This document shows, piece after piece, positions 10,040 to 52,000 of a stretch of DNA of 64,000 nt. Source of the DNA: Branchiostoma floridae (lineage: Eukaryota > Chordata > Leptocardii > Amphioxiformes > Branchiostomatidae); NCBI RefSeq assembly GCF_000003815.2, contig NC_049979.1, forward strand, positions 15,495,240 through 15,559,239. The letters run 5' to 3'. Numbering within the stretch: the first letter of the stretch is position 1; every line of letters starts with the position of its first letter. The position numbers and the translations under genes were made by a program. The notes under the pieces are model-generated. The model saw only the letters and a program-made list of their open reading frames with translations. It was not told the DNA's origin and searched no databases.

Positions 10040-12133
10040 GTGGGGTCATCAGGGGTCATGTCAGAATTGTGGGATGGAGGGGTGGGCAGCTTCCTCCTAC
10101 AACACAACATCATGTCAGTATTCAGTGCAACACATACTAAAAGGAAAGAAGTTCTTTCAAAGAACTATCTTGGAACTATCTTTGCTGAATAATGTTATAA
10201 ATTTTATAATGATAGACATTGATGTTGTGAGTGCTAATCATTGTCTATTTCCCCAAGTCTGTGTTATGTTTTGCTTTCAAGGCTACTTATGCTACATCTC
10301 ATCTGGTTTAGATATAGAAGTACAAAATATGACTTATTAAGACATGAATACACTAATAAGACAACATACTCGTAACTGTGCATGTACTGGCATGGTTCAA
10401 ACAAGGATCGGGCCACTGCACTGCAAGTTATCCAGATCAGCCAGGGTTTAATTTGAACCCTTTTCCGGGACTATGGCGAATAGTTGAATAATATACGGAT
10501 AATTTGGTACCTATCTGACCATTGTGGCTCTAGTATCCAGAGAGAAAAGGATGTGCATTTTACATAATCAACGCCCCCCTCCCCAAGCCAAAACAAGAAC
10601 TAGGCCAGGGCAGTGTGTCCTACAAAACTTGGAGAAAGCGGCTTGTTTTCGCGGCTGGCCACATCTGATTGGGTTCTACTGATTCTCAGAACCCATATTT
10701 GACCATACAGAGAGTAAAAAATAACTAAATATTAAGAAATAAGGCAAGACGAACCTTGTTTGGTCGGTATCGTTTGGTCGACACACCGGCACAGTTTTGA
10801 TTGTGTAATCGTCCCTAAGAGGTGAAAGGTCATACGCTGTCGTTATTACCAACGTTTTGCGGCATACGATAACCAGATGGATGTCGTAAAATCTTCCGTG
10901 AAGAACCCACAGGTGAAAAAGGTGGTGATGACCGGACAGAGATAACGGTCGGTATCTTAATCAAGATCCGCGAAAGTACCTTCCATAGTTAATTGTGGAT
11001 GCAAGATAAGGCAAACAATTAGAACCTTTCACCCAACCGCTTGGTCACGAGTCATATCTTGATGTATTGCGTTATGTTAGACAGTGAGGTAACGTTAACG
11101 TCAATGAGTTTCTGAGTGTGGTGGTTTCAGGTTGGATTTCTTTAGTCTGTGTGACACAAACTCTGCTGTCCAGGGCTATAGTCTAGGAGGCCGCCGGATG
11201 TTGGGCGGGCTGCTGTAAGCGAGATTTAATCAGGCTAGAGTTTCTTTGCTTATGGACTGAACTCTATGGATCCCTTGCGATATGTACGTCTTGAGAAATA
11301 TTACAAGTTATCTAAAGTTCCTTTGTAATCAGCTTCCAGGCCTAAAACAACAACACAAAGGACATTTGGAGTCTTATTGACAACAAACCACAAGAACGAG
11401 TTCAGTGCACTTGAAGAATAAATCTCCATGGCATAGTATTTTTTTACCAAAACTGTAGACGGGTATTGTTCACAATAAATGTCTCTTCCACGAAGTTTCA
11501 CTTGTTGATGGACTGAAGAACAATAAAACTTTACAAGGATAGCAAATACATAAACTCTATACCAGCTTCATATCTCACACGTGTTGCGTAGCGTTTACAG
11601 AACTTATAACGTACTTAATCATAATCAAAATGTGTAATCATAAATTCCAAAGCTGCATATTGCACAATTGGTTGTACATCGCGTTTTGGAAATACCTTCT
11701 TTCATAATATGCCGCCTACCCTACAAATACACCAAAGTATTAAATATAGCAACGGATCATAACTGAACAGAACCGAACAAATAAATCTGTCATATATAAT
11801 ATAAACGATACACATGTCGCTACAAGCTCCCATTATTTGATTTAACTTAAATCTAAATGATGAGCAGGTTTCTTCCACGTATGTCTTCCGCAATCGAAGA
11901 AGTAACTATCATTTTCAGTATTCCCTGTAAGACCAGCGGAACTGCATAGTATGTAATTAGTCCATGTATGTTATATCATTCTCTGATTTGATATTTCCGA
12001 ACGGGTCGTTTGCCGGTATGACTTCCCTTCAAGTTCAGCACAATGTTCAAGATCCCCAAGCAGATAGATTTTTTGTTTGTACATCTTTTATGCGGGATAC
12101 ATCCAGATCGCCGGCCATGAGCGCTAGTGCAGG
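10040..12133. other. Intergenic: DNAJC4 5' flank and homeobox gene 3' flank
   Basis: This holds the DNAJC4 promoter side and sequence past the homeobox stop codon. No ORF with a recognisable domain or supported splice borders was found. The region 10700-11200 is richer in CpG than its surroundings and may include the DNAJC4 promoter, but no clear core element was seen. Confidence 0.4.
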
Positions 12134-12338
12134 TTAGTTAGTCAGCCTGGTCTCCACCTGCCCGTTCTCGTACCGACGAATCAGGTCCTCAATAGCGGCC
12201 CGCATGGTGTCGTCCGGCGGCCCGTAGGTGAGGCCGGGCTGGACGCGGTACCCGCCCGGCCACCGGCCGCCCCAGTACCGCCGCGTCAGGTGTTTCCGCC
12301 GCGCCTTGGTGCGTCTGTTCTGGAACCACGTCTTCACC

Positions 12339-12358
12339 TGCGTTTCACTGCGTTTCAC
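12339..12358 (-). repeat. 10-bp tandem duplication in homeobox exon 3
   Basis: On the plus strand GCGTTTCACT occurs twice in direct contact. In the coding direction this is AGTGAAACGC twice, within the codons for SETQ of the homeodomain. Ten bases is not a multiple of three, so the frame is lost downstream. No donor/acceptor choice that I could find keeps the full helix. The only in-frame acceptor (the CAG just before GTGAAG) would delete six residues of the turn and helix 3 start. Confidence 0.95.
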
Positions 12359-13657
12359 TCAGATTCTAGAGGGAGAAAAAACGTTATGTCTTTAACAAGA
12401 CTGACATTTTCCTCTACCCAGTGTTTCAGAGGCATGATGTCGACCTGACTTTACAAAAATTTCAAGCGACTTTTATAACTCACGATACGTTAAAAACAGA
12501 CCGGCCACGTCTCACTCTGGGTGAATTTAATGACGAGCGGCCCCCTGCGAAGTATATGTAAATTGCAGGTAAATCAGCATAACAAATGATCTACATCTAC
12601 GTTTATTTTTGATACGTGCATATTAGACGATACAGACTGTATTACATTTGGCGATACCACGTTAATGAGAAAAATACATACCAGCGCATTTGCCAGACAA
12701 ATCCTCTCAATCCTGCTGAGGTAGTTTTTCTCCAAGAAGCGCGTCTCTAACTCCATGACTTGATGGCCGCTGAACAGTCTCCTCTGCCGTCTCCGGCTGT
12801 CTTCTGGGCTGTCTTCTGTCTCGGTAGGGTCAAGGTTATCATCCCCCTCCCCATCCTCTGTTAGGAAATATGTGTGATAACCTCAGTATTATTTTAGAAT
12901 GCATACCAAATTGTGTTGTCCCACAACCTCACATCAACTACCGAGAGGGGCTATGAGACGCGCCACTACTTTGCGATTGTCCAACCGGAAACTTTCGTTG
13001 TTAGTCGTGAGTAGTCATTTTTTTTTCTTTTCGTTAGAAACTTATATTTACATACTGAACGCTTTTTGAATATCAGTTACCAGTATCTTTAAGCGTGTAA
13101 ATCTTTGGACGAAGGATGCAAGTCCATTTTTGCTCGATTTTGCAGACCAGGCAGAGCTGTACACACGGCGGGCGCCGCATTTATTTGTTTACCATTCTGA
13201 ACATAATAACACCTAATTACGGACGATTAGAGCTCTTTGGAGGGGTCCAAAATACATTAGAGTATGAATCAAAGTTTCGAATTTCTGAATAGGTTGGTAA
13301 AACAATTTAATTGTTTTGGTCACGCCCATTCCATAGACGATGTTTTTAAGAAAAAAGCGCAGCGAGTGCCAGGAATCCCGGTAAAAATCCGGTCGTGACC
13401 AGGCTAGATTCCCAGCGCTGCCTAGACTCATCAGGGGTTGTAAGCTAGGACAACGTCGCCTACAGGACGATTTCTAAAGTGTGCGGCTTTGAGAATATTT
13501 CTAGACATTGTCACAGCTACTTTGGGATCCATTTACTGGCTATACGTATGGTACATGTATTTGCAAAAATGAAGTGACATCTAGCATACAGCCCCACACC
13601 CACGTGCAAAGTACACCAAGACAAGTTTGATATACACGTGACGATCATACGAGAATA

Positions 13658-13707: not shown

Positions 13708-14311
13708 GTAGTATATTCTTCAAGTAGAAGCCGGGGGTCGCAGCTATTCCAACTATACATGTACACGGTTCAAATGATGTTGCTTGAGAAGATCTTTATG
13801 ACTTTCGAGATGATAAAACTAATTTTACCTCCTAATATCTGCTTGATGGGTAACAGTTGTATCTTTTTATCGACCTTATATTTGGTAAGAGATATAAAAA
13901 AATGAACAAAATCGTCATACCATCAACGTCGACTTCTGTCTCGTCGCACGCCTGCAGCTGCTTTGCGGAGTCTGGACGTCTTTCGTGGGATGGCGTAGCT
14001 ACTGCAGCACGGTGTGCCTGGGAGTCTCCAGCCTGGGAGTCACTTGAACTTGAACTCGGGGAAGGTGTTACAATGAAGTTTTCTGTAGAGAAAGGCCTGA
14101 AAGATGCAGGGTTGGGACGGTACATCCACGGTGGCTGTACGGAGCATTGCCCGGGTGGGCCGGCAGGTGTGGAGAAGGGGTCGGCCCATGTCCGCCACGG
14201 TGCGTGTCCTGCACGTGTCCCGTCGGCGTGTTCCCTGTCTCCGGGCTCCCACCTGTCCCGTCCGTGGGAGGACGGCTTGGATAAGATTGCCTCCACCGAG
14301 AAACTAAGCAT

Positions 14312-20600: not shown

Positions 20601-23600
20601 CTTTCCGTCATTGTTGACGAACAAACTCGGCGCGTAAGTATAGACAAATTTTGCAAAAATCTCTAAAAAATCAGCGGATGTTTGCGGACGGTGCTGACTT
20701 TGATGATAATTCCTAACGCACGCCGGCGGCGAGAGAGAAGCGACTGGTCGAACCCAGTCGGTGCCGCGCCCTTCCCCCTAATGTTCTGGTCAGTCGCATC
20801 GTGCTAGCGCCGATGTTTTTGTTGTCATTTTCCCGGCCCCGATTAACTGTCAGTTGTTGCTACCATAGAAGTAAAAAAAATCGAACAATATGTGAAATTA
20901 AATTAGGTACTTTCAAAATAGTCTCCGGTAAGCCGATCGGACCTCATATGCTTGCGCTCTATACGGGGGCGGGGCCCTACATGAAACGTGACAAATAGGT
21001 GTGCTTTTGATTCTTTAATTGACTGCTTATAAAATATGGACCGAATCTACCGGTGTCATCATGTTGCACCAAATTTGGGCTGACCGTCTATGAAAATTAA
21101 GATGTCGAAGATATTTCCCAAAAGGTAGGCAGAGATTTGTTGATGTTGGCGGTGTTGTTTTTTTCGTAATGATTTTCTTAGTCGGACCATCGCAAACAGT
21201 GCATTCAGTCCCTTTCCCCGTGAAAACATCAGCTAGATTGTGCTAGATACAGCCTCACATGAGGCAAGCAGTACATACAGTCACAATTTTATTGTCAAAT
21301 ATTATAGAATTGAATTCTCGTTTCTATCTACTTGAATTAGACTAACTTCTGAAGAGAGCAAAATTAAAACAAGCGTACCAAGTTACGGCACACTGCGTAG
21401 CACAAAATCGGAAGGTACATTCACAGCTTGAAATGTCTCACAGAGTTTGCCGCTTGTACAACGCAGCGCGAAGGGTTCTCCTCAGCATGCTCAGTCACAC
21501 TTTTACGTTTTTTATGAACCATATACCCAGTGTGAAATCGAATGTTACACATATCCTGTTTATGTCGCAGTAAGAGCGCAGCGCGATCGCCGTCTAGTGG
21601 AAATTTCGAAAGGGGGCCTTACCAACTACTGTAAATCGCACAAATTCACAGAAACAGCTGATTAGCGTAATCGCTAAAATTGCCACAAATCTATTATATT
21701 CGTTCACGTCCCGCAGTTGCCGGACACTCTCAGAGCAGAAATTGATATGGCTACCCCTGCACACTGCAAGTGATCTTCACAGTACGCAGCACATCTCCGC
21801 TATGCTTCCTGTCACAGTCAATCTGTGTAAATTCATTCATATTTTGAACGGCCCAATCATTTTTTCAGAGCCCGCAATTCATATTTCATAAATTTCCTTT
21901 ATTTTTAGCAAACAATTTTGATTTACGTTTGATGTACGTAGTTTGTTTATGCCCTCATTATCAATACGTGCCGCAGTCGGTACACTTCAAACCCGTCCGC
22001 CTGTCAATCATGCAAACTTCAAGGGGTTAGGTTTCTGCTACACTTAACTTTCGCGTTGGCTTATGCTGATTTGTGCCTGGGGATTTGTGCTGTGCCGGCC
22101 ACTCCCACCGTGTATAAAGCTGTAAGTAGATTAATTGTAATTCACCCAGACTTCGTTTCCGTGCTCCACTTGCTTGCTGGGGACCAACGCAGCGCTGTGG
22201 TAACTTACATGATAAACAACAAGGTGAACGGAATGACCGTGACCTAACATGGGGAGGGCGTTCCACGCTGCAGTTAATCGTGTTTGTTCAGGTCAGTTTA
22301 ATAGCGAAATAAACTCATCAAGTCCATCGTTTGTGTTTCACATACCTTTATGTCTCAGGCGTAAAACTTTGAGTTTGCATGACGATCGTTATGCATGTTT
22401 TTTTATGTAACAGCCGGCAACACGCAGTGACCTTGCGTCTAACGTAGTCATGTGTTGTTGTTTTTTTGCTCAAATGTTCTTGTTGACTCAAAAATCGGTT
22501 AACTACAACCGTGACACCAATCCGTGTTTCATTTAGACGACAGCTCTATGTATGAACTTGAAAAACGAACAGGTCTCGCTACATTTTTATGATTAACGTT
22601 ATATGCCAGTTACTTATCATGTCAGGAGACATCCAAAGAAATCACCACATACACGTAACGTTACCACAGTTGTCGGCCTGTCTGAGAAAATTGCAGTAGT
22701 GCTCTGAATGCGTTCGTTCACCAAATTATCGCGTGTGTACGCACGAGTGCTGGCGTACTACACATCGTGTGTGTTCTTGATTCTACGTAACTCAAACACA
22801 ACATAGAATCCGAACAATGTTTGGATGGCTCAGAGTTAAACTGACTTGTGCAGGTAGCAAAACCTTTAGCTTAAACAAAATCAAGAAAAGTATCGAAACA
22901 AATGCTTAGATTTGACTCGATATAGACCTTAACCGAGACACATTATACTTTGGGGGCATTAAATTTCATTCTGCATGCCCTCAATTTCATTCTACCTTCC
23001 TTGAAGTTGATATAACGTTACTAGTATGCAAAAGGTGCCGATATTCGGCAAAATAAAGTCAAAGCTCTGTGAATTTCTTGATCCGATTTATTACTTCTTG
23101 GTAAAATGAATTCCACAAATCATTCAGAGGACGGCTTCTGCCTCAATTCAGGCCGTCCAAAGCAAGATGAAGTCATCATTTGACGGACGGACACTTCCGT
23201 GTTGCGTAGTGGCGGTCGTTGACCTCGTTCGAACACCATGTTCCATAACTCCCGGGCGGGTTCCATAGCTACCGGTCGTTGACCTCGGGTCCTTGGAACG
23301 TGGTTCTAATGTTCTATGGGGGCTCGAAAGTTCGATTTTGTGTTAAAATTGCTAGTTTTTTCACCCTTTTTTGCCCCATAAAATCNNNNNNNNNNNNNNN
23401 NNNNNNNNNNNNNNNNNNNNNNNNNNNNNNNNNNNNNNNNNNNNNNNNNNNNNNNNNNNNNNNNNNNNNNNNNNNNNNNNNNNNNTTATGTGCAGACCTA
23501 CCAGCTTGCTGAATTACGAGATATTCCAAGGTCTAGTTTTGGAGATATTCATGTTTTTTATTTGTGTGGAAAAGAAGAAGAAGAAACGATGCAAAAACAG

Positions 23601-28900: not shown

Positions 28901-31900
28901 AGGGGTTGGCCCTGGTTCTGGCATTCCTCATTTCTTGGCCATCCAGAACATCAAAAACACTCTGTATACACCACAGAAAAAAAATGACTTTCATTAAAAG
29001 AATGGAAATGGAATCCTAAGCAAAAATGCAGCTTGCTTGAGGCTTTTCCTGATTGAAAAATCTAAAATGTCCTTTATCTTAATACAAATATAATACAAAC
29101 AAGAGAAAGATTTCAACAAGGATTTGCTTTGCATCACAACTTTTCAAGGTGAACGACAATAGGGATGTTTCGATGATTTGACAGACTTAACTACATCAGT
29201 TTCTTTCTTACCTACCTTACACTTCAGCAAGTCTAACAAGATTTCTTCATTACAAAACTCCACTTCATCTTCAATCTGGTTCTTCCTCTATACAAGAGCA
29301 ACAAAAGATATGAAGAAGCATAAAAAACAATACAATAACCTTTAAATTCTTATATGTGCTATGTTTCCTACTGCAAACTTTCTTCAAGAATTGATATGCC
29401 TGCAACCTGGATCTAGAAATCAAACTATTCTTGTTACAAAAGAAACAATACTGCGAACTATTCTTTTTCCAAAATCATATCCAGTTGCTTGAGTAATTGA
29501 TATTTGGCGTATACTTCTTTCAGGCAAGATCTATCTATTGACCCATCCTCCAAGATCTTCAAACCCACAAACAAAAACAACATCATATCATGTTCTAAAC
29601 TCTTCAAATCCTTTATAAAACAAAGATACTTACTGTGCCCTCTAAGACCCAGTCTTGTAAGGTGTCTTTGTTGGGAACAGGTTTCTGACAGGCAGGCAGC
29701 CATCCTGGCCTCTCGTGGACAGAAGGCTGAGGGGAAGGACCATGGATTGGTAAAAATGTAAACCTACAAACACATCTAAAATATCAGTCCCAGTTGCCAG
29801 TTTTGGAATAGCTATTAGTATACTGATAACTGGTTAGAAAGGATCATGCCATGGTTAGGGAGTTACACTTCTGCAATGTTCTGGTACCCAGTCTAATTTG
29901 ATAAAATAAACACTGCAAAAAGAACAAAAAAACCTTCATAAGCAAAACATGAATATTCATACCGGTTCTTCATCTGTCCAGTCGATGTCGATTTGTCCAT
30001 CGAAGGCCTCCAGCTTCAGACCCAGACCGCGGCGCCCACGCTGTGTGGAGGCCTCCACAATCTCCTTCCGACCCTGGCCATGCTTTCCCAGACCCTCCTC
30101 CTTCTTATAACCCATCTTGGCCTGCACACAGAATCATGGAGACAAACATTTAACTATATACTGAATTATTGACATTTTTTCACTGTCAATAAACTACCAG
30201 CATCAAAAATGCTTGACGTTATAAGCTGTTTTTGAAACCACAAGTTCATTGAATATCTTACTCTTTTCCATTAAGATAGAATAATTTCTGTCATGAATGG
30301 GAAAGAAAATGGTGTCCTGCTCACAATTTACACCAATATCTTGGTGGGTGTCATTCATCATTACCATCAACAATCAGTAGCACTTAAACATGAAGTTACC
30401 AGTCTTAACATTATTTAGGGCAATTTTTGGCTATTTAATGACTAGACACAGGCTGCCCACCTATATGGACTACTCATACACCCATGGCTATTTTTGTATC
30501 CTGCACCACAAGTCATTCACTCACTCACTCACTCACAACACATGGTTTCTGTCCATTGTTCCTAGTATATGATGAAGAATTGTTTACTCTGTCCAGAGAC
30601 TAACCATCATCCGTTCAGCAAAACTGTTGTACAGAGGAGCCGCTGAAGCAGGGCCAGGCTTGGGCTGGCCCATGGCCGCTGATGTGCCCAGTGGGGGAGG
30701 CCTGGCCGTGTCATCATCTTCATCACTTTCTGTAGAATCTGGAGCAAGGTGAAGGAAAAATGATCCATCAAACATCATCCAACATCACATGATCATAATG
30801 TCAAAGGCTTGAGATACTTGAAGATGGGCTCCCTAGCTGTTTGCTGTGGTCCTGCAGAGTCGTCTTTCTGGTTTGTTTGTTTGTTTGTTTGTTTATTTAG
30901 TGCAGGCCGGCTTTCTGTCCAGCTTTCTGTCTGGCTTTCTGTCCCGCTTTCTTTCCAGATTTGGATTTCTGTCCAGATTTCTGTCCAGATTTCTGTCCAG
31001 ATTTCTGTCCGGATTTCCCATCCACCCTTTTCATTTCCAACGGGGAGAGTGCTCTAGGTGCCTTAACATGCTTTTTTGTGGCACATTTCATCATAGCAAG
31101 AATATTTTTATTGATTAAAACCATTGGTTTAAGTCAGTTTACGTACACAATATAAACAACAGACTTTACAATAACAACAATATCAAACAGATGATAAATC
31201 TTGACAAAATGCTTTCAATGAAAACTCACATAATTTTTTTCTAATCCTCAAAGAGACTACTATCAGGATAAAATGGTACTGCAACAAGGAACTGCACAAC
31301 AATAGCTGCATTTGCCCAAGGACGTTATATGAACGTGCTTGATTTGCCTTGAGCTCCTGGTTCAAATCCTGGGAAGGTATCTCAGTTGGAACTGCACCAA
31401 TCTTTTGGGAGGGATGTAAAATAGGGGTCTGTCTTCAAGGACTTGCCTCAAGCAAGTTAAAGGGGAAGCAACCCCTTCCAGTAAAAATATACCCAGCTAC
31501 AGAAACAGTGGGGAAACATGCTAACATAATATGCTACTAGGTATTACAAGGTGAACAACAGCAATAACAAAATGCTTTGCTGAAAGTTCACCTTAAACTT
31601 TAAGATATAGATGTTCTTCAAATTTTGAAGAATGGTGACCAGGTTATTGAATTAGTCCAGCCCTAAGTTTTGTTTGAGAGGATCATAATCCACTTTTGGC
31701 TACAATTGTGACTGTCTTCATTTCATGGTCTGCTTGAATCTATTCATTCAACCTGCCTCAGGGGTGGGTTGATTGTTTACAGTTTGCAGCCTGCCAGCCT
31801 AACCCGGAAACAAATACAAGCAGTATTGGACTTTGGCCAGAGACCAGTGCTGACGTGTGTGCACATGTACAGGGGGCAGCACACATCATGGCTTCCCCAC

Positions 31901-34900
31901 AGTCAAGTCTGGGGGAACAAATCAGGGAGGAACTGTCCTGTAGTATCTGTCTGGATCTGTTCAGCAGGCCCAAAGTGCTGCCCTGTATGCACACCTTCTG
32001 CCAGGACTGCCTAGGGGATCATGCAAGAGCTCGGCAGCCATTTGAATGCCCAAACTGTCGTCTACAGGTCACCCTCCCCACCCAGGGTGTACCTGGTTTA
32101 CCTGACAATCATTTAGTCGCAAACCTGTGCGAGAGGATCAGTAAGCAGGTAAAACTACCTGTCAAAACACCTGATCAGAGTCAGACCCAACCTGAGAATA
32201 AATGTATCTTTCACCCCTGGGAGGAACTGAAGCTTTATTGTGAGCAGTGCCAGCTGTCTGTGTGTACTGAGTGTATGGGAGACCATCATGCCGGCCACCG
32301 TACAACTACACCCAAGAAGGCTTCACAAGAAAGGAGAGCAGCCATCCAAGAACTTGTATCAGAGGGAAGGAACCTTTTGGAGACCTACTTCACCTTCTTA
32401 AGGAGCCTCAGGGACAAGGAGAAAGTTCTACACAAACACAGACAGCAGACAGACAAGAACATTTACCACAACTTCAATGAAATGCTTCAGATGTTGATCA
32501 ACATGAAGGACAGCCTGTTGTCTGAAGTGGACCAAACACACAGGCAGAACATGACGGCGATAGAAGGGCAGAGAGAAATGGTACTGACTCAAGTGGCTGA
32601 GCTGGCGGCTGTCTGTGACAGCGCAGAGGACAGGCTGAGACAGGGTGGGATGGACTTACCTGGTCAGGAGAGAAGCCTCACACAGGTTATTGGAAAATAC
32701 AGAACAAAAGCACCTCTTAGTCTTGTCCCTATACAGACAAGGGCTGCTGTATTTCATCCCTCAGACACTAGAAAACTGGAACTGGGACAGGTGAGTTTCC
32801 ATTCTGTAAGGTCACCCTCCATATCCTCAGTAACAAGTTATACAACAGGAGCGATGCACAACTCTGAATACAACCTCCAAGGAGACGGAGAAAAGGACCA
32901 TCACCAGTTTGAAAGAACAACTTTTGGTGGAAAAGGCTCAGAGCAAGGAGAGTTTGACAGGCCCTTTGGGGTGGCAGTATCAGAGGATGGAGAGATCTTT
33001 GTCGCAGATCGAGGCAACCAGAGGATTCAAATCTTCACTCTACAAGGAACCTTTGTTTCTCAGTTTGTGACAGTTATATCTGGTGGTCAGAACATCTCTC
33101 CCCAGAACGTGGCTGTGGACACGGAGGGGAACCTGTGGGTGGTGGGGAACCATGGTGTAGCTGACTTTGCTGTGCTGTACACCAGGGAGGGGAAGGTCCT
33201 GACAACAATCGACCTACAACAGACCAGGTGGTCCAGAGGTGTTGCCATAGATACCAGGAGGAACAACATCATTGTAACACAAACCATGGGAGAGTGGGGG
33301 TTCTGCTGCGGGGAGGTGCAAGTCTTCAGGCCAGACGGAAAACTTGTTAAAACTATCGGGAAAGACCAGGGGATGAAGAACCCAGAGTACATCACTGTGG
33401 ACAGTAGTGGGAACATCCTTGTGTCAGACTGTGAGAACAGTTCCGTCTACGTGTACGATGAAGACACAAATTTCTTGTTCAGTTTTGGTGGTGAGGGGAG
33501 CAGGGAGGGTCAGCTGACCTATCCACGTGGTATCTGTAGTGACAGCTCAGGTAACATCGTGGTGGCAGACTGGGGAAACAGCTGTGTTCAGTTGTTTGAC
33601 AGGAGAGGAAGGTTCCTCAAACACATCAACACAGACATCAGACAACCATGGGCTGTTGCCATGGCACCACATGGACAGCTGATAGTGACAGATGACACCA
33701 ACAACACAGTAACAATTTTTCCAAGATACTAGTACTAGACTTCAGGCAGTGACTCTGGCCAAGGTACTAGTAATAACAAACGATTCCAACTCTGCAACAA
33801 AGACTGATAACATGGTTATAATCACCCCCTTGAATGGAGATATTGTTTTTGAAGTGACTGTTTGTGAGATACACATAACCAGGGGCAAATTATGAAAATA
33901 AAGGCTCCATTTTTGGCAAAATAATGAGAAAATTGTATAATTCTTGCATTTTCATTGACACATGTGACTTAAATAATGTAGGGTGGGTGGGCCTAACATT
34001 ACTAGCTTTTGATGCAGTGACTCTTGCCACATTTTATATTTTCTGAATAATAATAAAACTTATTAAAAGTGTGACATGACAAGCATCAGACTGTCATCAT
34101 ATATGCATTTCCAAAAGTAGCCATCTGAAGCAGGTAGTATACTCTATGATAAGTGTAAGGATAATGTTGCAGTCCATAACTCATTCTAAGATTCCTTTTA
34201 CTCAAAATAAGAGTATGAAGGTGTAATCATCAACAATTACAGTATGTGAACTAATACAATGTACAACAAGCCATAATCACCCATTGTATAGTTGCACATC
34301 AGTATATCTTGTATCAAGTTATGTGGAATGTTGTTATGCAAGATATTTTCATGATTAAAGCAATGCATACTGTCCAAACCCAGAACGCTGTGGTTCGTTG
34401 ATAGTAGGGTCAGAGCTAGGGAAAACAATGTGTCGGACTTTGACCTGCTTATTAAGTAGCAATTTGTATGATTTTCATGTCATTGAATACATCTCTGTCT
34501 TAAATACCTGTACATCTATTATTATGGAAATTTGTTGTTCCTTTGTGTAGTTATCCTCCTTGAAATATTTTTTTTAAATGCCACTGTACTTCCAGAGCAA
34601 GCTGCTAGGGGGGGCCAAACCTACACCACTTATACTTCAAGTTCATATCACAAGCTATCTACAACCAAAAACCAAGACCATAAAGCCTGTCAAGTTAAAA
34701 AAATACAAACAATGTAAGTTCTGTTGCAGTACCAAGGTCACACATCAGGGGGCCCAAATTTGACCTTGATCTTCCTCCTCTAAACACCTACCCACTTACC
34801 AGATATCATTGCAATCCATACAGAGGTTCAAAGTTATGGTGACCACAAATATCCAGAAACACAAACAAACATATGCACAAACAGACATACCAATACATCC

Positions 34901-43600: not shown

Positions 43601-45468
43601 CAGCCTCGACATCAACCAACATTCCGTCAATTTTTCGGCCAGTTTTCTCAAAACAGGTGTCTATAACAGGTATGGTGTTCTTTATTTTTTCAAGAATTTT
43701 CAAAACGCCGCCTTAGGTATTTATACACTAAAACGTTTTCTTCGAAAAACTTGCGCCAAACAGTCTTCCTTTCGTACCTTGAATCACAGTACAATGTACC
43801 TTTCGTACCTTTTAATACAACAGTTTCCAACGTTAACAGTTTCGACTTCATTCCTCCTTGGTTGGTTGGTTGGTTAGATTTGAATAATTTCCAGCCAACA
43901 TCGCAGAGAAGTGAGACTCTCTTCGTCTCGTACATCCAACTTATCGTGTATTTTTGCTGTCACGTGCCTATGAAGTACGCATTCACCGCCATGTTGGACG
44001 TTGATACCTGGAAGTTGCTAGGTGAAATTTGTATAATATGAAACAACAGTCATTTGCAAACGCATTGCACAGAGGTGCAAATTTGATGTTGTAATTGTTC
44101 CAAGTTCCACCAACCAGTATGGCGACTCTGAGCGGTAGGGCGCAAACATTCCATCTTATAAATGTTTTATCCTTCCTCCCTATCAGGTCAATCGAAGCCA
44201 ATGACATCCTCCCGGGGCCTACGTTCATGGGTGTGGACCCGCCGTTCAGCCTCTTGGAGCGGCTTCGAGCCCTGTCGAGCCCGGGAGACAATGCCATCAT
44301 CAACGTCTGGAATTTCGGCGGTGATTTCGCCGCTCTCACAGATGCCTGGGTCTTCGCCCAGTTTGATCTAGACACGCTGGACACAATTGGCGTCTCCGTT
44401 CCCGACCCTATCCTCGAAAATAGAGGATGCCAGACGACAGAGGTTTACATGTCCTGTGCGCATCCTATGGTAGAGCCAGGGACAGGACACAGTATTAATT
44501 TTGTGATGAAGGTGTCCCTTTTCCCCGGACAGCGCGACACTTTCCGTGTCATCAGAATAAAGGATCTGCGCACAATTGAGACCCTGGCCAGCTTTGAAAT
44601 AGACAAAATTTGGTACATGCACAGCTTCAGTCTCACGGAAAACTTCGCCATCTTCTTCGCTCAGCCTTGCTATTACGATTTTATCCGGTTTTTCACCACA
44701 GTTGAAGCGCAACACTCAATATATTGGGCCCCAGATGACGGGATGAAGATTTACGTCGTAAACCTCAAGACGGGTAACGTTACAACGCTGCACACAGAGG
44801 CCGCGGCCGCGATCTACACGCATCACGTCAACGCGTACGAGACAGGCGACGGGCGCGTCGTCAACGATGTCGTCATTCTTACAAACACCAAAGCCTTCAC
44901 GACAGGCTTGGCTCGGTCTAGGTTGACTAATATTACTGCCATTAGGGAAATGCAGTCACCAACAAGGCTCTTTCGATACATCCTCGACTTGAAGACGGGA
45001 AAAGTGGAAGTCCATCCTTTCGTGTCTAAAAGTCCAACCGAAGACTTTCCAAACACGCTAGATCTCCCTGTCATCAACGAGAAGTGCCGCGGAAGGCGAT
45101 ATTGTTACACGTACGGTACCGTGACGACTTTCCATAGCAACAGTCCAGTCAAGGGTGCGGTTCCCATAGTCAAGAAAAACGTCTGTCTCTCCCATAACGA
45201 CACCCTCTGGAGCCGCCCCAACCACTACGCCGGCGAGCCCATTTTCGTTGCCGACCCGAACGGCACAGAGGAACACGACGGCGTCATTTTGTCCTCCGTA
45301 CTGGACGGAGACAGAGGCCTGAACTACTTGCTGATTCTCGACGCTCGAACCATGAAGGAGATAAACACGGCCTACATGCCCACGTGGATACCTTTTGGCT
45401 TCCATGGACAGTTCTTCCCCAGATCATTCCCTGATGCTCCGGTCACCGGCACTCACTACGAGCTCTGA
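40638..45468 (+). CDS. Carotenoid cleavage oxygenase / RPE65 family protein with putative signal peptide
   Basis: Three exons: 40638-40826, 43524-43669 and 44187-45468, phases 0 and 2, giving 538 residues, a normal family length. The family is carotenoid/retinoid dioxygenases and isomerases (BCO1, BCO2, RPE65, ninaB), seven-bladed propellers with a four-histidine non-haem iron centre. Ligand motifs are all visible: CAHP at about 202-205, WYMHSF at about 254-259, THHVNAYE at about 323-330 and PFGFHGQFF near 518. Also typical are VPPWLSGTLVRNAPSQF, NYFDGFAKLHSLD and the late GEPIFVADPNGTEEHDG. Two things are odd. The N-terminus MAWWTTIAAWLLCCVF reads as a cleavable signal, whereas animal BCO/RPE65 proteins are made without one. 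The PDPCK palmitoylation-loop motif of the metazoan enzymes is replaced by GVDPPFS. The substrate cannot be told; it may be a divergent secreted or luminal branch. Confidence 0.88.
41921..42990. repeat. Three diverged copies of a GGTCAACG..CTTAAGTCC motif in an intron
   Basis: GGTCAACGGCCTTAAGTCC (41921), GGTCATCGACCTTAAGTCC (42260) and GGTCAACGTGCTTAAGTCC (42968) lie in intron 1 of the carotenoid-oxygenase-like gene. Their downstream sequence also partly agrees (TTTTGTGC or TTTTGTCA). Blocks near 41420 and 42355 share GGACAATGC and CAGAAAACCA in the same order. This suggests an old dispersed or tandem duplication, now strongly diverged. Confidence 0.45.
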
Positions 45469-45552: not shown

Positions 45553-45892
45553 NNNNNNNNNNNNNNNNNNNNNNNNNNNNNNNNNNNNNNNNNNNNNNNN
45601 NNNNNNNNNNNNNNNNNNNNNNNNNNNNNNNNNNNNNNNNNNNNNNNNNNNNNNNNNNNNNNNNNNNNNNNNNNNNNNNNNNNNNNNNNNNNNNNNNNNN
45701 NNNNNNNNNNNNNNNNNNNNNNNNNNNNNNNNNNNNNNNNNNNNNNNNNNNNNNNNNNNNNNNNNNNNNNNNNNNNNNNNNNNNNNNNNNNNNNNNNNNN
45801 NNNNNNNNNNNNNNNNNNNNNNNNNNNNNNNNNNNNNNNNNNNNNNNNNNNNNNNNNNNNNNNNNNNNNNNNNNNNNNNNNNNNNNNNNNNN
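45553..45892. other. Assembly gap (340 N)
   Basis: A run of 340 N about 85 bp past the carotenoid-oxygenase-like stop codon. Any poly(A) signal for that gene may be hidden here. Confidence 0.95.
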
Positions 45893-49052: not shown

Positions 49053-52000
49053 TCAGAAGGCATCCGGCTGGAACATACTGATGACATGTTTCACCCAACC
49101 GTTCATCTCTACCAGTCCAAATGCCTTCTCTGTGATAGGCGCAGGATCTGTAGGTGCAGACGCAGCCTGCGTTTCATCTGTAGGAACGGTAACACTCTGC
49201 AGATATTGCTTTGTCCTGTCCTTTATAGAACTTGTGGATACTGCATCTGTGTTGAGAGATGAGGAGGAGAGAGATCGCCACAGCGGCTGTTTGGACTCAT
49301 ATGACCTTCGTCTTCCTGAGTCTTTTTTGCTCTCATTTGGGGAGGTGAAGACCTTTTCTTTCCCGTCCTTGTCCTTCTCAATGATGACGACAGTCCGAGG
49401 TTCAGCTGAAAGTCCGTACTTCTCAAGTTTTCCCTGCAAGGCCTGAGTGATGTCCTCGGAGTAGGATATTTTTCGTGTCCGACCGGATGTCAGGATGGGA
49501 GAACTGGTCACGGAGTTTGGAGCAGAGCGGGATATATCTAGCCCAGCTATCGACACTTTGTTACCCTGGCGCAGGCTTCTCCTTTCAATGAAACTCAATG
49601 GTCTCCTGTTAAGTTTGACCACAGCTTCTGACGTAGACAACCTGTGCTCCCGTGTACTTGAGCTTCTCCTTGGTCTCCCTTGGGGTGTTTCAGCCTTCTT
49701 TGGGGTAGTCTTATGGTTGATTACAATTGTAGGAATATCCTTATTGTTGTTGTTCATGGAGAGGGAGTTCCGACGCTCCCCAGGATCTTCTGAATTACTC
49801 ACTTCAGACTTTTCATCTTTCTTGGTCTTGTTTTCTGTGCTTTGGACAGTTGTTTCCACCTCAGGTTGATCTTCTGTGATTTTCAGGACGGTCAAACTTT
49901 CTGTTGGGTCACCTGTTGATGATGCAGCACTGCGTACAGGATCCCCCACAGACAGTTCACTCAGCGGGCGACTGCTGGCCGGAGAGGTGAAGGCAGATGA
50001 TAGCAGGCTATCACAGGAGTTCAAGCTAGCTGAAGAGAACCTGTTCAAGCCCGACATGTATGAGAGATCCCCATCTGACTGTGTTACACTCCTACTTCTC
50101 TTCAGGACCTTTGACGGGTCTGAATGTTGTGCGATGCGGGCTCCAACTGCAGGGGAGCCAACAAAGGAGTGACTCCTCACCTTGCCAACAGCAGGGCGGA
50201 GAACGTCACCCTCTGAATAGTTGCGTTTCTTTAATAAAGTCTGGGCTGCTGCTGCTCGTTTCTTCACCCTCATGCTGTACTCTCTGGCCAACCGATACAC
50301 TCGGTTTTTCCCATGCTTGCCAGCCATGCCACTTCCTGGGTGCTCCTCAATTATGTCTTCCTGAAGGAAGACAGAGCTTGAAGAGGTTCTTCTCACAGAA
50401 CTGAAGGAGCCAATAGAGCTTGAAGAATCACTTCTTTCCCTTGCCCTTGCTAGAGGCGACCGTCGGACGAAGTTGTGTAGGGCAGACCTGATTCCCCTTG
50501 CTGACGGACTCACATTGCTCTCTGTTTTTGCCAGCTTCGGTGTTGCTTCTATTGTTTTCATTGGAATTGCTGGCTTGGATGCCTGGCAGTCATTTATACT
50601 TTTGTCTATGTAGGCTTCCAGGTCACTCCATATGTCCTCTGTATCAACAGCTTCTGACGACAAGCGCTCTTGGTCCTGCTCAAGATCCGACAGTTTCCTC
50701 TCGGCTTCTGCAGACAAAGAATCTATGCTTGGGCTGAGTTGCGGAGACGCTGCAAAGCTTCCTGAGATATTGCACAGGCTGACAGACTTGCTGGGACTGG
50801 AGGGCTGGCTGCTGCTGCTGCTACTTGTACTGCTATGCAGCATCTCAAATGCCTCTTCCAGGCTATACTTCCGGCTAGGCTTAGCTTGAAAATTCAGCAT
50901 TCCATTGGAATTTGGTCTTTGGAATTGATGGAAGAGTGTAAGATTGGAAGGACGTGGCTGCGTGTTAAGGTTCTGCACACTACTGAACATGCCTGGTCTG
51001 CGAACCCAGATGTCTGAGGACTCATCGTCCTTGTCATTAAACTTGGACCGTACCATGTCAGGACGATACGAGGGGGAGATGTGGTCATAGTCTCCCTCCT
51101 CATCTGAATCTGTTTGAAGGGCATCTTCTCCACTGGCTTCATCTCCCCTCTCTAACTCGGCAACACTCTTCTTAGTCCTTGCAACATTACTGTCTACACC
51201 ACTTGGTTTGTTTTTCTGAACAGTAACTGGGCTACCAGATGTAACACCATTTTGCTTTTTGCTCATTGTCTCTTCTGCAATTGCTTCGTTCCCATTACAC
51301 ATAACACTGTTTTCTCCATTATGCATCAGTTCTGACAAGTCCACGTCGTTACTTGCACCAGAGGACCTGTCTGAAACCACATCAGCTACCTGCACTTCCA
51401 CAGCATTACTATTGCTACTGTCCTCATCACATTCAATCCTCAAGTCTGTTTCTCTCCCAGCTTTGGCCAGCACGTCCAGGAAAGCCTCCACGTCCTCCTT
51501 GGTGCCGTCCAGCACTAGACTGTCCACGCTGCGGCTCCGTCTACGGGCCACGATGGGGGACGGCGTCTGTCCAGCCCGCTTTCGACTGCTGCGTCTTCTC
51601 ACAACTACAGGTCCCTCATCCTGCATGTCTTTACTGAACACAAGTGTGAGAGAATAACAAAGCATGATGCCAGGATAAGACATTGCTGGACAAGATCAAT
51701 TGTTTGTCAAAAATGACCTTCCTATATCTCATATCAAACAGTATGATATAAAATGGTGGACCACTTACAGTTTCTTGGATGGTGGGTGGTTGTTCTCCAT
51801 CAGAGAAAGTCTGGAGAGGAAGAGGCTTCTGATCGGTAGCCTTCCTTGGTGTCAGCTCACTCTCACTCTGAGTCCCCTCTGCACTGGAGTCTGCACCTCG
51901 GAACGACTTGTCTCTCTTCTGGAGGAAAGACAAGAGATTTTACATTTCAAGAAACTGATGAAAACAAAATGGAAACAGAAACAGTACACTTTGTTCTGGC

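Follow-up and report, generated by a model that had tools for sequence, protein, structure and literature searches.

A 10-bp tandem duplication puts the recognition helix of a probably NK-like homeobox gene out of frame in a lancelet genome sequence

The closest described counterparts of the lesion reported here are the frameshift alleles that segregate in lancelets. Between haplotypes of Branchiostoma belcheri, SNPs amount to 4.39% and small indels to 0.98% (PMC4284660), while 20 animals of this species yielded 134,185 frame-breaking coding indels and 17,307 stop-gain variants (PMC7008246). In B. floridae, 2,309 genes (7.9%) count as dispensable, being missing in part of a set of 41 resequenced samples (PMC12373286). 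With variants and dispensable genes in such numbers, it is to be expected that one of more than 100 homeobox genes should be broken. The lesion at our locus is likewise a small, frame-breaking coding indel in a highly polymorphic Branchiostoma; however, the B. belcheri alleles were called from 20 animals (PMC7008246), whereas ours is seen in one assembly and in a homeobox gene. The lesion is genuinely there in the sequence, but we regard it as rather ordinary, probably one of many broken gene copies in a very variable species.

The chromosome assembly of B. floridae was built from Sanger reads of a single diploid animal at roughly tenfold coverage, its two haplotypes being assembled apart and then merged into one (PMC7269912). 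If the window (the whole 64-kb stretch of DNA analysed here) comes from that merged assembly, its string represents either one haplotype of one animal or an artefact of the merge. If the lesion is real and segregating, the lancelet population would hold a natural knock-out of a developmental transcription factor, and crossing carriers would reveal whether the gene is needed; a gene model taken from this reference could also wrongly imply the loss of this homeobox gene from the species. No publication describing an amphioxus homeobox gene as broken was recognisable from titles and the beginnings of abstracts among the literature matches listed, and a full-text search with five protein stretches returned no match.

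The homeobox gene lies on the minus strand and was modelled with three exons, whose borders were read from the genomic sequence. Its features are as follows (a slash marks a splice border).

13921..14311, minus strand: coding part of exon 1 (391 nt), starting MLSFSVEAILSK, with an EH1-like motif; from the translation and the donor G/GTATGACG
12682..12857, minus strand: exon 2 (176 nt), homeodomain up to L38, phase 0 at the donor CTG/GTATGT; from the translation and Pfam
12795..12818, minus strand: second micro-duplication, a 12-bp pair in exon 2; from the repeat scan and translation
12134..12365, minus strand: exon 3, the last modelled exon, which in exon 2's phase reads NLSETQ and TGA; from the translation
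12338..12359, minus strand: period-10 run with two perfect copies of AGTGAAACGC; from the repeat and genome searches
12345..12347, minus strand: premature TGA, 18 nt beyond the exon 2/exon 3 junction; from the exon model

Within exon 3 the unit AGTGAAACGC stands twice, head to tail, at 12340-12359 of the minus strand, and the period-10 run that contains it extends over 22 bp (12338-12359). The double unit, AGTGAAACGCAGTGAAACGC, is matched there with 0 mismatches and has a single match both in the 64-kb window and in the whole genome (513,431,437 bases). The sequence-only reading that had called a 10-bp tandem duplication in this exon was thus right about the event and the site; its coordinates, 12339-12358, are one base off for AGTGAAACGC and describe a rotation of the same repeat. 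With low-complexity units excluded, the window has no other perfect 10-bp tandem pair, and 100 Markov-1 resamples average 0.11 such pairs per window, so that the pair is more than a chance occurrence; a chance repeat was rejected on these grounds and because AGTGAAACGCAGTGAAACGC had 0 matches in 100 dinucleotide shuffles. A scan of the window for periods 8-30 found eight perfect tandem arrays, all of period 8-12, two of which fall inside the 786 coding nt of the homeobox gene (post hoc binomial P 0.004). The second is the perfect 12-bp pair of exon 2 (12795-12818, minus strand), which stays in frame and reads TEDSPEDS.

The remainder of the gene looks clean. Translation starts at the ATG at 14311 and exon 1 reads MLSFSVEAIL, in which residues 4-10, FSVEAIL, form what we take to be an EH1-like motif; the N-terminus may therefore bind Groucho. 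Both donors (GTATGA, GTATGT) and both acceptors (AACAG, CTCTAG) are canonical, and the frames are open on either side of the duplication, in agreement with the intact splice sites and open frame to the stop that had been claimed. As also predicted, exon 3 reads NLSETQ in the phase of exon 2 and then meets the TGA at 12347-12345. Its second frame, VKTWFQNRRTKARRK..., runs from 12337 to 12137 over 67 residues and ends at the stop at 12136-12134; over the stretch from 12337, this VKTWFQNRR frame has no stop other than that terminal one, against 4 and 2 in the two remaining frames. Counting against a working gene, the 1,500 nt after the stop contain no AATAAA and a single ATTAAA (at 11230). The intron within the homeobox falls at residues 38/39, whereas many homeobox matches of the genome stop at residues 44-46; the usual 44/45 split point corresponds here to CAG/GTG, just where the repeated run ends.

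The single open frame that should run through homeodomain helices 1-3 is absent, being broken after residue 44. In the phase of exon 2 the predicted protein has 195 residues and ends after homeodomain residue 44, and VKTWFQNRR with the remainder survives only in another frame. That the duplication "destroys" the recognition helix, as had been proposed, is accurate in that the frame is lost beyond residue 44, close to where helix 3 begins, but the letters of the helix core are unaltered. Joined with X over six residues, the two homeodomain pieces match PF00046 over positions 1-57 with 56 bits (cut-off 22.9, E 3.4e-15); for the genome as it stands, the listed PF00046 match covers positions 1-37 only, with 28.7 bits. 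The truncated product would retain helices 1 and 2 but lack everything from residue 45 on, and a 195-residue protein of this kind would presumably be unable to bind DNA. Under the usual exon-junction rule, a stop in the last exon lets the mRNA escape nonsense-mediated decay. Since the TGA lies in the last modelled exon, 18 nt past the junction, the mRNA of this gene should do so too. A missed alternative exon carrying helix 3 within the window was rejected, as a six-frame search for W[FYI].N.R met this pattern once, in exon 3 itself.

The identity of the gene was approached through its homeodomain. The exon 2 piece has one other genome match at E <0.001 (C4:16901941, 54% identity). For a broader comparison, 93 loci were drawn from at least 135 PF00046 matches (150 of 246 candidates scored), and the best-scoring 22 of the 93 were considered; among these 22, identity to the gene is at most 21 of 38 residues. 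No close paralogue was found in the genome. Four of the five top loci, all but L004, look like Lbx and NK genes; two loci that we take to be Hox- and Gsx-like (L015 and L021) score nearly as high as the leaders (79 vs 88). Because such homeodomains follow so closely behind the Lbx- and NK-like ones, an NK-like assignment of the gene is likely rather than shown, and we refer to it as probably NK-like. At least 135 PF00046 matches were also scanned for internal stops, a scan that a frameshift without a stop would escape; three had them, and these are not comparable lesions, since by our reading the stops sit at likely exon borders.

Among solved structures the best match is the TLX2 homeodomain (PDB 3a03, E 3.5e-14), which shares 29 of 42 comparable residues with the window pieces and has VKTWFQNRRTK in common with them. 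Another locus (L024, C4:12590277-12590444) is nevertheless closer to TLX2, with 37/48 against 29/42 residues, and is the better Tlx candidate; on this direct comparison of the two loci our gene seems not to be the Tlx orthologue, by a modest margin (77% vs 69%). A further likeness is found on the same contig, in a homeobox gene at C1:16241622-16243272 that we presume to be Bsx and that reads ...LAAALNLTETQ/VKTWFQNRRMK. Over the exon 2 part it is identical to the window gene at 19 of 38 residues, but its homeodomain is split at 44/45, whereas that of the window gene is split at 38/39. The homeobox genes of B. floridae have reportedly been surveyed in print (Takatori 2008). The Abox and Nedx families persist in amphioxus but have disappeared from vertebrates (PMC2982225).

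In our best reading, to which we give a probability of roughly 0.62, an NK-like homeobox gene of the sequenced diploid animal had a genuine loss-of-function allele, which most likely segregates in the population. What the DNA itself shows is the duplication, the change of frame and a gene that is open elsewhere; the allele is further supported by the exactness of the tandem unit, its single genome match, the canonical exon borders and the open frames on both sides. Errors in a Sanger consensus rarely look like a 10-bp tandem copy, which also counts for a real allele, as does the high base rate of frameshifting indels in B. belcheri. Because the copy is exact and AG stands at both borders, we infer that the 10 bp were copied when replication slipped between short direct repeats, namely the AG found at each end of the unit; the copy would have changed the frame at homeodomain residue 44, thereby bringing the TGA into frame. 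The animal would also have carried an intact allele on its other haplotype. No uninterrupted form of exon 3 was found in the assembly: the exon 3 region has one match genome-wide, itself, so that no alternative haplotype was found for comparison, and a second copy of the exon, whether in a close paralogue or as a leftover haplotype, was rejected.

The age of the lesion bears on this reading and on its rivals. No further lesion was seen in the 786 coding nt, so the description of the rest of the gene as clean stands. For an allele of average within-species depth, neutral expectation over these 786 nt is about 3.2 more lesions, with P(none) 0.04, at rates borrowed from the sister species B. belcheri rather than from B. 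floridae. Only the 201 nt downstream of the lesion must have lost their role, however, and there 0.83 lesions are expected, with P(none) 0.44, or 0.19 at twice the average depth. GC3 downstream is 0.90, which is weak evidence for a gene translated until recently. The lack of further lesions thus leans towards a young lesion without proving its youth, and the earlier description of it as fresh receives modest support, from the 786-nt figure but not from the downstream one.

Two of the competing explanations place the cause in the assembly or in the history of the species. Haplotypes joined 10 bp out of register, or a slip of the consensus, could have produced a double unit that no animal carries; we consider such an error unlikely, though the published assembly of B. 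floridae does merge two highly divergent haplotypes (PMC7269912), and in the reference of B. belcheri 455,768 variants were common to all 20 animals and were regarded by the authors as probable reference errors (PMC7008246). A perfect 10-bp copy inside one exon, however, would demand a haplotype switch exactly at that point, and no N gap is nearby, the two gaps of the window lying at 23386-23485 and 45553-45892. A segregating null allele and an assembly artefact, the pair that the sequence-only reading had offered, remain the leading explanations. It is more doubtful that the gene is a fixed or common pseudogene, or has been retired to a truncated role, so that the species no longer makes this homeodomain. 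The downstream probabilities just given are compatible with a loss of this kind; the rest of the 786-nt coding sequence is open, though, and the high downstream GC3 argues weakly against it.

The lesion might also be tolerated, with an in-frame homeodomain protein still made through alternative splicing or frameshifting. Donor-acceptor pairs around intron 2 that stay in frame and meet no stop before 12337 were listed, with acceptors taken as far as 12337. There are 30 such pairings (16 with GT and 14 with GC donors), none of which keeps the normal homeodomain spacing, and a splicing rescue to a normally spaced homeodomain was accordingly rejected. Three of the 30 come within two residues of it:

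donor 12660 + acceptor 12337: homeodomain one residue too long
donor 12677 + acceptor 12357: two residues too long, with VLKRSETQ before VKTW
donor 12657 + acceptor 12337: two residues too long

The normal donor at 12681 joined to the acceptor at 12337 also keeps the frame, at the cost of skipping six residues (39-44). Against these routes, each of the three near-normal pairings would demand that a cryptic donor be used along with a cryptic acceptor, and the acceptor at 12337 has a poor pyrimidine tract (5/16 upstream pyrimidines vs 13/16 at the normal acceptor). We therefore hold a tolerated lesion to be very improbable. The pairing of 12677 with 12357 makes the homeodomain two residues longer just before helix 3. 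We would give hardly any credence to the idea that the double-unit allele is common and kept, the gene working without a standard recognition helix either by that route or as an EH1 protein truncated in its last exon.

Three other long open frames are present in the window. One of 625 codons at 31855-33732 encodes a RING finger, a B-box and NHL repeats and is TRIM-like. Another, of 876 codons on the minus strand at 49053-51683, has no Pfam match at E 0.001. The third, of 457 codons at 44095-45468, matches the RPE65 carotenoid oxygenase profile over positions 101-469 (E 3.9e-70) and is followed by the N gap at 45553-45892.
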